From assembly GCF_001544575.2 (NCBI RefSeq), contig NZ_FCNY02000001.1, forward strand, positions 620,001 through 684,000: a stretch of DNA of 64,000 bases. The letters run 5' to 3'. The notes beneath the pieces were generated by a model. The model was given only the letters and a program-made list of their open reading frames with translations. It was not told where the DNA came from and searched no databases. Position 1 is the first letter of the stretch, and every line of letters begins with the position of its first letter. Made by a program: the position numbers and the translations under genes. This document shows positions 21,122 through 52,500 of the stretch, one piece after another. Origin of the DNA: Caballeronia cordobensis (GTDB lineage: Bacteria; Pseudomonadota; Gammaproteobacteria; Burkholderiales; Burkholderiaceae).

Positions 21122-22147
21122 ATGCTACGCGAGCTGATCATTGAATACGGGCTGCCGTTGGTTTTTGCCAACGTTCTGATGGAGTGCCTCGGCTTGCCGC
21201 TCCCAGCCTTGCCCACATTGGCTTTGACGGGTGCCATCACGGTTTCGGCAAGCCTCGTTCCGGACGCTTTTCCGGCGCTGTTTCCATTGACCGCGATCGG
21301 CCCGCTCACCGCGATCGTCGTGACGGCGACCATTGCCGCGCTGATCGGCGACACGCTCTGGTTCTGGCTCGGGCGCCGTTACGGCAGCCGCGTGCTCGCC
21401 TTCATGTGCAAGCTCTCCATCTCGCGCGATACCTGCGTCAACCGCAGCGCCGGCTTCTTCAGCCGCTTCGGCGTGCGCATCCTCGCCGTATCGAAGTTCA
21501 TTCCCGGGCTCTCGACACTGGCGATTCCCGTTGCGGGCGCAACCGGGATCGGCTTCGGCAGCTTCCTGTTCTACGATGCGCTCGGCGCGCTGCTGTGGTC
21601 CGGCGCCGGCGTCGCGTTTGGCGCGATCTTCGCGGATCTCGTCGATGCCGCGCTCGCCTGGCTCGATCTGTTCGGGCGCGGCGTGATCGCGATCGCCGTC
21701 GCCGCGCTCGCGCTCTATCTCGCGGTGCGCTGGTGGCAGCGCGTGTCGCTGTTGCGCCGGCTTCGCATGGCGCGCATCGATATCGCGACATTGCGTGCGC
21801 TGCTCGCGGGGGAACCGCCGCCGCTCGTTATCGACGTACGCCGTCACGAACGCCGCGCCATGGACCCGTATGCGATTCCCGGCGCATTGCTTTTGCACGA
21901 CGATGCCGCGTCGCAGCTTGCCGGCATCGCGCGCAACCGCAAGCTCGTGACCTACTGCGACTGTCCGAGCGAAGTGTCGGCGGCGCTCGCGGCTAAAGAG
22001 TTGGCGGCGCACGGCTTCACGGACGTCGCGCCGCTGCTCGGCGGGCTCGAAGCGTGGCGCGCGGCGGGCTACGCGCTGGAGCCGCTGATGATCGAAGGCC
22101 TCGCGAGCGCCGCCACGCGGGGCGTCACCAATTCGTCTTCCGCCTGA
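21122..22147 (+). CDS. DedA-family membrane protein fused to a rhodanese domain
   Basis: 341 residues. N-terminal DedA/VTT (SNARE-associated) domain of about 200 residues with re-entrant and TM segments: IIEYGLPLVFANVLMECLGLPLPALP, GDTLWFWLGRRYG, and FSRFGVRILAVSKFIPGLSTLAIPVAGATG with its conserved Arg. A rhodanese domain follows (about 222-315; VIDVRRHERRAMDPYAIPGA, VTYCDCPSEVSAALAAKEL, LLGGLEAWRAAG), with Cys279 or Cys281 as the likely sulfur-carrying residue. DedA proteins are undecaprenyl-phosphate/lipid transporters; the attached rhodanese suggests coupling to sulfur or redox chemistry. It is 51 bp from mnmC. Confidence 0.9.
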   Translation: MLRELIIEYGLPLVFANVLMECLGLPLPALPTLALTGAITVSASLVPDAFPALFPLTAIGPLTAIVVTATIAALIGDTLWFWLGRRYGSRVLAFMCKLSISRDTCVNRSAGFFSRFGVRILAVSKFIPGLSTLAIPVAGATGIGFGSFLFYDALGALLWSGAGVAFGAIFADLVDAALAWLDLFGRGVIAIAVAALALYLAVRWWQRVSLLRRLRMARIDIATLRALLAGEPPPLVIDVRRHERRAMDPYAIPGALLLHDDAASQLAGIARNRKLVTYCDCPSEVSAALAAKELAAHGFTDVAPLLGGLEAWRAAGYALEPLMIEGLASAATRGVTNSSSA

Positions 22148-22198: not shown

Positions 22199-24007
22199 AT
22201 GACCGAATCCCAGTTCTTCACGCCGCACGATCTTCCCGCGCGCTGGCGGCGCAAGCGCGCCTTCACGTTCGTCGACACGACTTTCAGCGCTTTCCTCGCG
22301 CTCTGGCAACGCTGGCACGACGACGAAAATCGATGCGACCGGCTGCATGTCGTCGCGCTTGCGCATCTTCCCGCGCTCGACACGCCGCCTCCAGCCGATG
22401 ACCCTTCCCCGCTTGCCGCCGAACTCGCGCGTGCGTGGCCGATGCGCGTGCCCGGCACCCAGCGGCTCGAATTCGATGCGGGGCGCGTCGTGCTGACGCT
22501 TGCCATCGGCGACGACATCGAAACGCTGCTGTCCAGACTCTGGCTGCGCGCCGATGCCTTCCATCTCGATCTGACCGCAACCGCCGATCCGCGCAAGCTG
22601 TGCAAAACGCTCGCGCGCTTCGCCGGCGACGACGCGACGGTGTGCGCATTCACTGCCGATAAGCAACAACTTGAGCGCGCGTTGCAGGCGTCGGGCTTCG
22701 CCTGCACACCACGCGACGCGTATACCGATGCGCCCGTGACCGCGCGTTTCGCGCCGCGCTGGCGTGTGCGCCGTCACGAGCCGCCGCTGCCGTGCGAGGC
22801 GAACGCGCGAGAGGCCATCGTCATCGGTGCCGGGCTCGCGGGTTGCGCGGTGAGTTCGCGTCTCGCCGGGCGCGGCTGGCGCGTCACGCTGATCGATCGT
22901 CACGCGTTGCCCGCGCGCGATGCATCGGGCAATCCGGCGGGCGTGTTTCATCCGATCGTCTGGCGCGACGACAGCGTCGCCGCTCGCCTCACGCGCGCGG
23001 GCTTCCTCTACGCGCTGCGCCGCTGGCACGCGCTCGAATCGGCGCATCACGACTTGCAGCGTACGGGCGCGGGCCTGCTGCAGATCGCCGATACGTCCGA
23101 CGATGCCAAAGCGCTCGCGCACGCCATCGCGCGCTTCGCGTATCCGCCCGCCTACGTGCAGCCGATGACGCGCGATGAAGCGTCGCGCATGGCCGGTGTC
23201 GATGTCGAACGCGGCGGCTGGTTCTTCCCGCTTGGCGGCGCCATTTCTCCGGCGGCAGTCTGCGCCGCGCAGCTCGCCGATGCGTCGGCGAACATCACGC
23301 CGCGCATGAACACCGACGTGACGCGCATCGCGCACGACGGCCGCGTGTGGCGCGCGTTCGACGCGAGCGGCGCTGAAATCGCGAGCGCGCCCGTGCTGGT
23401 GCTCGCCAGCGCGCACGACGCCGCGCGGCTCGCGGGCCTGCATGGCGAACCCACGCGCAGTGTGCGCGGCCAGCTCAGCGTGCTCGATCCATGCGCGCTC
23501 GATGCGCTGCGCCTTCCGGTGATCGGCGAAGGCTACGCGGTGCCGCTCGGCCAGGATGGCGTGCTCATCGGCGCGACCTACGACATCGACGACGCCGATG
23601 GCGAGATCCGCGCGGACGGACATCGGGAAAACATCGAGCGCGTCGCGGGCATGTTGCCGGCGCTCGCGAACACGTCGCCCGGCATTCGCGCGGGGCGCGT
23701 CGCGTTCCGCTGCGTGACGAGCGACCGCATGCCGATGATCGGCCAGTTCGCCGATGAAAACGCCGCACGCCTCAATGCGCGCGAACTGTCGGGCGCGTGG
23801 CCGCTCGACCTGCCGCGCATGCCGGGACTCTATGGCGCGTTCGCGTTCGGATCGCGCGGGCTCGTCTGGGCGACGCTCGCGGCCGAACTGATCGCATCGC
23901 AAATCGAGGGCGAGCCGTGGCCCGTCGAACGCGAACTGGCCGAATCCGTCGATCCAGCCCGTTTTTTGCTACGTCTACTGCGACACGGCGAATTCTGCGC
24001 GGCGTAG
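22199..24007 (+). CDS. mnmC: MnmC-type tRNA modification enzyme with a degenerate methyltransferase domain
   Basis: 602 residues. In the normal bifunctional enzyme, the C-terminal FAD oxidase removes the carboxymethyl group from cmnm5s2U34 and the N-terminal MnmD domain then methylates nm5s2U34. The oxidase half is intact: IVIGAGLAGCAVSSRLAGRGWRV (207-229), ASGNPAGVFHP, and AFGSRGLVWATLAAEL near the end. The MnmD half is recognisable by position and flanking sequence, but the SAM-binding ETGFGTGxNFLxxW motif reads VDTTFSAFLALW (25-36), and the LDGFAPxKNPxxW catalytic motif reads LDLTATADPRKL (123-134). About 35 N-terminal residues are also missing. Methyltransferase activity is probably lost. 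Confidence 0.88.
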   Translation: MTESQFFTPHDLPARWRRKRAFTFVDTTFSAFLALWQRWHDDENRCDRLHVVALAHLPALDTPPPADDPSPLAAELARAWPMRVPGTQRLEFDAGRVVLTLAIGDDIETLLSRLWLRADAFHLDLTATADPRKLCKTLARFAGDDATVCAFTADKQQLERALQASGFACTPRDAYTDAPVTARFAPRWRVRRHEPPLPCEANAREAIVIGAGLAGCAVSSRLAGRGWRVTLIDRHALPARDASGNPAGVFHPIVWRDDSVAARLTRAGFLYALRRWHALESAHHDLQRTGAGLLQIADTSDDAKALAHAIARFAYPPAYVQPMTRDEASRMAGVDVERGGWFFPLGGAISPAAVCAAQLADASANITPRMNTDVTRIAHDGRVWRAFDASGAEIASAPVLVLASAHDAARLAGLHGEPTRSVRGQLSVLDPCALDALRLPVIGEGYAVPLGQDGVLIGATYDIDDADGEIRADGHRENIERVAGMLPALANTSPGIRAGRVAFRCVTSDRMPMIGQFADENAARLNARELSGAWPLDLPRMPGLYGAFAFGSRGLVWATLAAELIASQIEGEPWPVERELAESVDPARFLLRLLRHGEFCAA

Positions 24008-50535: not shown

Positions 50536-52500
50536 ATGCTTTATCCCACAGAATTTGATGTGATCGTCGTTGGTGGCGGTCACGCAGGCACTGAGGCCGC
50601 GCTTGCCTCCGCGCGCATGGGCTGCAAAACGCTGCTTTTGACCCACAACATCGAGACGCTGGGCCAAATGAGCTGCAATCCGTCCATCGGCGGAATCGGA
50701 AAAGGTCATCTGGTTAAAGAGGTCGATGCGCTCGGCGGTGCCATGGCCGCGGCTACCGATGAATCCGGCATCCAGTTCCGTATCCTGAATTCGTCGAAGG
50801 GCCCTGCGGTGCGGGCGACGCGCGCACAGGCGGATCGGCTGCTCTATAAGCAAGCGATCCGTTATCGGCTCGAAAATCAGCCCAATTTGTGGCTCTTCCA
50901 GCAGGCCGTCGATGACCTGATGGTCGAGGGCGACCGCGTCGTCGGAGCCGTGACACAAGTCGGCCTGCGCTTCCGGTCGCGGGCTGTCGTGCTGACGGCG
51001 GGTACTTTCCTGGACGGCAAGATTCACGTCGGCCTGAATAATTACGTCGGCGGACGAGCGGGCGATCCCGCTGCCGTGTCGCTTTCCGCGCGGCTGAAGG
51101 AGTTGAAGCTGCCTCAAGGCCGCCTCAAAACGGGCACGCCACCACGAATCGACGGCCGCACGATCGATTTCTCGAAGCTCGAAGAGCAGCCGGGCGACCT
51201 CGATCCGGTGCCGGTGTTCTCCTTCTTGGGTCGGGTAGAGCAGCATCCGCGTCAGATGCCGTGCTGGGTCACGCATACGAATGCGCGGACGCACGACATC
51301 ATCCGCTCTGGTTTGGACCGCTCGCCGATGTACACAGGCGTGATCGAGGGCGTTGGGCCGCGCTACTGCCCGTCGATCGAGGACAAGATTCATCGTTTTG
51401 CGTCGAAAGATGCGCATCAGATCTTCCTGGAACCGGAAGGGCTGACGACGAATGAGTTCTATCCGAACGGCATCTCGACGAGCCTTCCGTTCGACGTGCA
51501 GCTTGAGCTTGTCCGATCGATGAACGGTCTGGAACACGCGCACATTCTTCGTCCCGGATACGCAATCGAGTATGACTATTTCGACCCGCGCGCTTTGAAG
51601 GCGTCGCTGGAGACGAAGGCGATCAACGGCCTGTTCTTCGCCGGTCAGATTAACGGCACGACGGGCTACGAAGAAGCGGCTGCGCAGGGCCTTCTGGCGG
51701 GCATCAATGCGGGCTTGCAGGTTCAAGGGAAGGAGGCATGGTCGCCGCGTCGCGATCAGGCCTATCTGGGCGTGCTCGTGGACGATCTCGTCACGCGGGG
51801 CGTGTCCGAGCCGTATCGCATGTTCACGAGTCGCGCCGAATATCGTCTTTCGCTGCGTGAAGACAATGCGGATATGCGTCTGACGGAGATCGGGCGCGAA
51901 CTCGGCGTGGTCGACGATGTGCGTTGGGACGCCTTCAGCCGCAAACGCGATGCTGTTTCACGTGAAACACAGCGTCTGCGTTCTACGTGGGTAAATCCGA
52001 AGACCTTGCCCGCCGAAGAAGCAACTGCGCTGCTGGGCAAGCCAATCGACCACGAATACAGCCTTGCGGATTTGCTCCGTCGCCCTTGCATCTCGTATGA
52101 CGGCGTCTGCGCGCTGCGTGAAGGCGCGTGCGGCCCCGAAGCACCGCTCGCAGACGATCCCGTGCTGCTGGAACAGATCAAGGAACAGATCGAGATTGGT
52201 GTGAAGTATCAGGGCTACATCGATCGTCAGGCGGACGAAATCGTGCGAAACGGCGCGCAGGAAAACACGCGCTTGCCCGAGGGTCTCGACTATAACGACG
52301 TTCGCGGCTTGTCCTTCGAGGCACGCCAAAAGTTGATCCAGCACCGTCCTGAGACGGTCGGCCAGGCATCGCGCATTTCGGGCATCACGCCGGCCGCAAT
52401 CTCGCTGCTGATGGTGCATCTGAAGCGAGGCGCGGGGCGTCGCGGCCGCAATGCGGCAGCCGATGAGTCAGCAACCGGCAACACGACGACGGCTCAATGA
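50536..52500 (+). CDS. mnmG: tRNA uridine-5-carboxymethylaminomethyl modification enzyme MnmG (GidA)
   Basis: 654 residues. FAD-binding [23 protein letters not shown] at the N-terminus, GidA signature [29 protein letters not shown] and [17 protein letters not shown]. With MnmE it installs cmnm5 at U34 of tRNAs. The substrate of the mnmC product at 22199 is made here, so both ends of that pathway are in this window. A perfect parS lies in its coding sequence. Four-base overlap with rsmG. Confidence 0.97.
51954..51969. promoter_or_regulatory. parS: parS centromere site 2, inside mnmG
   Basis: Perfect TGTTTCACGTGAAACA inside the mnmG coding sequence, encoding part of AVSRETQ. The symmetry stops at exactly 16 bp, unlike site 1. 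Confidence 0.9.

Follow-up and report, generated by a model that had tools for sequence, protein, structure and literature searches.

The mnmC gene of Caballeronia cordobensis encodes a protein whose methyltransferase half is eroded and whose FAD oxidase half is intact, and a complete stand-alone methyltransferase, MnmD, is encoded elsewhere in the same genome. Our preferred reading, which we hold to be probable, is that the methyltransferase half was copied and that the two copies then decayed reciprocally: MnmD would carry out the methylation in trans, and the eroded half would be a pseudo-methyltransferase acting as a scaffold for the oxidase. This reading is built on results shown here: a second gene is present and falls with the fused MnmCs of the sister genus, the two copies have lost alignment columns reciprocally, the eroded half is under purifying selection, and eroded relatives occur in other lineages. 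Positions given for mnmC and its neighbours refer to the window, i.e. the whole stretch of 64,000 nucleotides that was analysed.

The window mnmC (22199..24007, + strand) is an open reading frame of 602 aa with profile matches. Its FAD-dependent oxidase domain (residues 204-602; 22808..24004, +) is intact, as the original prediction had claimed: TIGR03197 matches residues 206-597 with 381.2 bits (cut-off 174.2), and the residue corresponding to Arg567 of the E. coli FAD domain is kept in 37 of the 37 eroded MnmCs. The domain is preceded by an interdomain linker, FAPRWRVRRHEPP (residues 184-196; 22748..22786, +), identical in 34 to 37 of the 37 sequences. The eroded half, of the MnmD/MnmC2 type (residues 1-183; 22199..22747, +), can be aligned over its whole length with fused and stand-alone methyltransferases by profile-profile comparison. 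The Pfam family Methyltransf_30 scores 25.7 bits on this half, just above its cut-off of 22, and NF033855 (MnmC2) is absent from the list of families that residues 1-200 match at E <= 1. Among solved structures, E. coli MnmC (3ps9) was matched with 156 bits. The whole protein clears the cut-off of the NCBIfam model for bifunctional MnmC (NF002480; 556.9 bits vs. 540), and gene-naming models can therefore mislabel eroded MnmCs.

The ORFs flanking the window mnmC are collinear with those at the fused mnmC of Paraburkholderia ginsengiterrae, and the window gene thus occupies the original locus. Just upstream, a gene encoding a VTT/DedA-domain protein fused to a rhodanese domain (21122-22147, +) has no counterpart at the otherwise collinear P. 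ginsengiterrae locus. The gene mnmG, whose product acts before MnmC in the pathway, is found in the window as well (50554-52428, +). The nearest relatives of the genome are C. arvi and C. catudaia (85%).

Alignment confirmed the two motif replacements that had been read from the sequence alone: VDTTFSAFL (residues 25-33; 22271..22297, +) stands where the SAM motif ETGFGxGxNFL is expected, and LDLTATADPRKL (residues 123-134; 22565..22600, +) stands where LDGFAPxKNPxxW is expected. In E. coli numbering, Glu101 is replaced by Ala in the window protein, Gly68-Gly70 fall in a gap, and the Asp aligned with Asp178 is still present, as in 12 of the 37 eroded sequences. Gly66, Asn72, Glu101, Gly179 and Lys236 are retained in none of these 37 sequences, and indels surround the eroded motifs in the loci related to the window mnmC. 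Residue 1 of the window protein aligns with residue 36 of the MnmD of the same genome, so that about 35 N-terminal residues are missing, in agreement with the shortened N-terminus predicted. Compared with the bifunctional MnmC of the E. coli type, the window protein has the same domain order, FAD domain, linker and interdomain interface, but it lacks the SAM and RNA residues in addition to this N-terminal stretch. A SAM-binding methyltransferase domain of the kind found in bifunctional MnmC was not recovered in it (no NF033855 match; mean SAM/RNA retention of 0.23 in the eroded set). An assembly or frameshift artefact was ruled out, since 36 related loci share the erosion in uninterrupted frames.

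A search of the genome (8.2 Mb, 99.97% complete) for a stand-alone MnmD, proposed together with the original prediction, found one, of 244 aa, on another contig (G000:C50:262223-262957, - strand, which is L001:1480-2214, -). It matches NF033855 with 239.2 bits (cut-off 136) and has no FAD domain. Its motifs are complete (ETGFGMGINFL and LDGFAPAKNPDMW), and Glu101, Asp178, Gly179, Lys236 and the SAM loop are all present. With a complete MnmD, the tRNAs of this genome should therefore still reach mnm5s2U and be fully methylated; the predicted stop at nm5s2U34 does not hold for the window genome but would apply to the Caballeronia that have no stand-alone MnmD. The gene begins 3 bp past a yceH-like DUF480 gene (both within L001:1480-2925, -), and this short gap suggests that the two are co-transcribed; the arrangement was found in one MnmD group. 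In the plasmid collection, relatives of MnmD also occur in eight Caballeronia records of 0.6-2.0 Mb.

In trees of the methyltransferase domain, the stand-alone MnmDs and the fused domains of the sister genus (g20) form a single clade (support 98/96 and 96/98); the 43 intact rows used were hand-picked from a larger set, several near-identical rows of g3 and g11 being left out. We infer from the tree position of P. ginsengiterrae that g20 is Paraburkholderia. In g20, exactly one methyltransferase domain was detected in 116 of 117 sampled genomes and none in the remaining one, and 114 of these 116 domains sit in frames of at least 661 aa, the two exceptions being G311, where the mnmC frame is broken, and G372 (369 aa). 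The clade shared with the fused domains of g20 does not support an acquisition of MnmD from afar. The genome's second gene has the domain and all the motifs of the stand-alone MnmD/MnmC2 family (NF033855), of which the DUF752 protein of Aquifex aeolicus is the tested example in the passages of PMC3648344 and PMC3936742 that we cite, but it groups with fused betaproteobacterial MnmCs, and it thus looks derived rather than ancestral. The MnmDs of the mineralivorans/SBC group end in GRFPSR or GRIASR, at about the point where the fused proteins continue into the linker. The genes around mnmD differ between MnmD groups, and a single origin of MnmD is neither shown nor rejected by the AU test (p = 0.485 and 0.438).

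Caballeronia is a genus of soil and symbiotic bacteria, and eroded MnmC is a pattern found throughout it. Among 42 loci related to the window mnmC, nearly all from Caballeronia or its leaf-nodule kin, 36 are eroded in an open frame (as foreseen for the window gene), 5 have broken frames, mostly in leaf-nodule symbionts, and the only intact fused gene is that of the outgroup P. ginsengiterrae. In the Vmac symbiont (L112, G097:C1:142541-143174), two methyltransferase pieces lie directly upstream of the MnmC FAD sequence and therefore look like a broken fused MnmC; its methyltransferase half being recognisable, the Caballeronia erosion would not be shared by this symbiont. The reverse state was observed in L074 and L111 (Candidatus Burkholderia verschuerenii), where the mnmC frame is broken and MnmD is intact.

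A PF05430 search of 58 Caballeronia genomes gave 37 genomes with a strong MnmD-type match outside MnmC (at least 105 bits), 3 with a partial match (G010, G043 and G052) and 18 without a stand-alone MnmD. Eight of these 18 are genomes of 6.2-9.4 Mb with a completeness of at least 99%; the ten others are of 5.1 Mb or less, one being only 60% complete. In the tally of named genomes, MnmD was above the cut-off in 28 of the 41 searched (P. ginsengiterrae not included) and no stand-alone MnmD was found in 9, including C. telluris, C. arationis, C. humi and C. terrestris. Of the four others, C. glathei carries a pair of overlapping partial matches that lie in different frames, C. temeraria carries fragments, one genome (L056) has its match split over two contigs, and the fourth is the Vmac symbiont described above. 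These two tallies are not independent, as many genomes are identical under two handles. On the FAD-domain tree, MnmD presence changes six times among 42 labelled Caballeronia rows; this count treats gain and loss alike, loss being the simpler reading. MnmG was found in all eight large MnmD-less genomes (10 of 10 searched, including G000 and G133). We also considered MnmM (YtqB), a different nm5s2U34 methyltransferase that could replace MnmD, and which we take to be the family PF06962. Passages of PMC9976899 and the controls given below agree with this link. This substitute was ruled out, as PF06962 had no match in any of the 58 Caballeronia genomes, while the controls in B. subtilis and L. lactis were positive. 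Caballeronia genomes without MnmD are therefore predicted to stop at nm5s2U34.

We then compared how the two copies have kept the residues of the fused protein, using the SAM and interdomain residues that Kim and Almo (2013) list for E. coli MnmC in the part of PMC3648344 cited here. Retention was counted over 41 intact, 36 stand-alone and 37 eroded sequences, at columns with a conservation of at least 0.8 in the intact set (41 of the 43 intact rows, without the Serratia outgroup and the poorly filled L163). In the eroded set, retention was 0.897 at the interface (16 columns), 0.227 at the SAM/RNA sites (12) and 0.578 at the other columns (74), whereas over the same columns the stand-alone set retained 0.724, 0.986 and 0.885, respectively. 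The excess of the interface over the other columns in the eroded set is significant (permutation p = 0.001; 0.0065 at a conservation threshold of 0.9). The interface deficit of the stand-alone set is significant at the 0.8 threshold (p = 0.013; 0.006 when restricted to near relatives) and not at 0.9 (p = 0.13; 0.07 with near relatives). Because these permutations treat alignment columns as independent, a sliding-block check was added. Over 170 blocks of 18 residues, mean retention in the eroded set was 0.31 below that of the stand-alone set, and the eroded set exceeded it only in blocks starting at E. coli positions 77-84, 125-142 and 158, which cover residues of about 77-101 and 125-159 plus the single block at 158. 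The first two series overlap Arg94-Leu95 and the beta6 interface 130-147, and the last block begins just ahead of the interface segment 163-168.

The beta6 segment corresponds to residues 79-96 of the window protein (22433..22486, +), a retained interface block that includes Arg89, the equivalent of E. coli Arg140. Of the three ionic pairs between the E. coli domains, Arg94/Glu637 and Arg140/Glu628 are kept. In the eroded set, the first is represented by window Arg48 (22340..22342, +; 37/37) with Glu572 (35/37), and the second by Arg89 (37/37) with Glu563 (37/37), these two glutamates of the FAD domain being E. coli Glu637 and Glu628, respectively. The third pair, Arg107/Glu375, is not conserved. 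As expected of a duplication-degeneration-complementation pair, the two copies are of common descent, by one origin of MnmD or several, and their losses are complementary, significantly so on the MnmD side at one of two thresholds.

The eroded half is under purifying selection. Of the 666 pairs among 37 sequences, 665 gave a dN/dS value for this half, in each case below 1, and dN/dS ranged from 0.12 to 0.29 in 14 near-neighbour pairs (14 of 14 below 1), with a median of 0.23 against 0.19 for the FAD half; these pairs were hand-picked (8 sister pairs on the tree and 6 near neighbours, of which some fall in groups of low support). An identical N-half value shared by two pairs was checked and is due to chance. 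Such values, low even between recently parted species and in pairs where both members have no stand-alone MnmD (L059-L060, 0.267; L063-L077, 0.196), hardly fit a decaying neutral relic whose frame would have remained open solely through the scarcity of stop codons in G+C-rich DNA. In favour of a relic, the medians by distance class are higher in the eroded half (0.22-0.37) than in the FAD half (0.19-0.25), indels occur around the motifs, and the frame is broken in the 5 loci mentioned above. However, the interface block (residues 76-104) has a pN/pS of 0.153, the lowest of six N-half regions and below that of the FAD domain (0.200), and this explanation, already disfavoured, is very improbable in our view. 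Given this selection, the most likely reason for the survival of the eroded half is that it serves the oxidase as a scaffold, a role which the original prediction had raised and which the selective retention of the interface supports as well.

The constraint on the half could also reflect a retained or new binding role, in which it would hold tRNA for the oxidase or dock MnmD. In favour of such a role, several arginines persist in the eroded set, and the separated E. coli domains re-associate with a KD of 87 nM (PMC3936742, in part). On the other hand, Lys236, classed as RNA-binding in Kim and Almo's table (PMC3648344), is lost from every eroded sequence, and several interface residues are lost from MnmD, which speaks against docking at that surface. 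Newly fixed residues in the eroded domain are few, which makes a new binding site less likely. The seemingly derived residues at positions 186-196 proved to be an artefact of where the intact rows were cut. We consider this role unlikely. Still less credible, and the least probable of the readings, is a half that still works as a methyltransferase through a rebuilt SAM site: the Methyltransf_30 score just over its cut-off and the Asp aligned with Asp178 would agree with it, but the five residues lost throughout the eroded set and the complete MnmD of the genome oppose it. So does the gap at Gly68, since Gly68 to Asp is described in a passage of PMC3936742 as a methylation-defective allele of E. 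coli mnmC.

Copying followed by reciprocal decay would have proceeded as follows. An ancestor of Caballeronia would have had a bifunctional MnmC, and its methyltransferase half would have been duplicated to a second site, giving rise to the stand-alone MnmD. Freed of catalysis, the original half would have lost its SAM/tRNA site and retained its packing surface towards the FAD domain; MnmD would have retained catalysis and let that surface decay. In the window genome, the FAD half of MnmC would make nm5(s2)U34, which MnmD would then methylate in trans to give mnm5(s2)U34; the eroded half would probably act in the folding and stability of the oxidase. We infer from the sequences what both enzymes do, that the eroded half is stabilising and which modification the tRNAs carry in the cell. 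Moukadiri et al. (PMC3936742, in part) found that the domains of E. coli MnmC, once separated, have a lower stability in vivo than the whole protein. Two published statements count against a scaffold: according to a passage of the same paper, folding of the E. coli FAD domain is possible in the absence of the methyltransferase, so that a scaffold is not strictly needed there, and the interface is generally not highly conserved among 140 bifunctional MnmCs according to the text of Kim and Almo (PMC3648344).

Erosion was also detected in three further lineages, two or three of these erosions being apparently independent. In g16, three genomes have an eroded MnmC, one of them with a stand-alone MnmD, and one of the other two is 83% complete. 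In g17, one genome has both an eroded MnmC and MnmD, and a second, 70% complete, gave no match. Eroded MnmC was found and MnmD was not found in g5 and in two g20 genomes of 4.1 Mb (G177 and G234). The latter two (loci L189 and L185), which lie within an otherwise intact sister genus, are also predicted to end at nm5s2U. At the profile level only, the MnmC of a g7 genome (G104) has no NF033855 match. These further eroded lineages keep 2-4 of 12 SAM/RNA residues (7 of 12 in g17) and 13-17 of 17 interface residues (8 of 17 in g5). A FAD tree of 61 eroded and intact rows (L065 excluded, Caballeronia rows thinned to 21 of 46) requires four changes between the two states, and the AU test does not firmly reject a single group of Caballeronia, g16 and g17 (p = 0.09), hence the count of two or three. 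We lean towards a split of the domain by subfunction, chemistry on one side and packing surface on the other, that has occurred more than once in Burkholderiaceae; several Caballeronia lineages would then have dropped the catalytic copy, ending at nm5s2U34, with the inert copy still under selection.

In the open-licence literature searched, we found nothing on an eroded or split MnmC with MnmD in Caballeronia, Burkholderia or Paraburkholderia, nor on mnmC gene fission, MnmC as a pseudoenzyme or MnmC subfunctionalization. Moukadiri et al. (PMC3936742), in the passages considered here, did not decide whether homologues of MnmC with a single domain are the ancestral or the derived form, and they proposed that the fusion may serve protein stability. 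The Caballeronia split looks derived and can be measured against close fused relatives, and the selection that keeps the interdomain contact in the eroded half argues that the fusion serves stability. The nm5s2U34 state is costly for E. coli mutants under specific conditions, and the species predicted to stop at this state can now be named.
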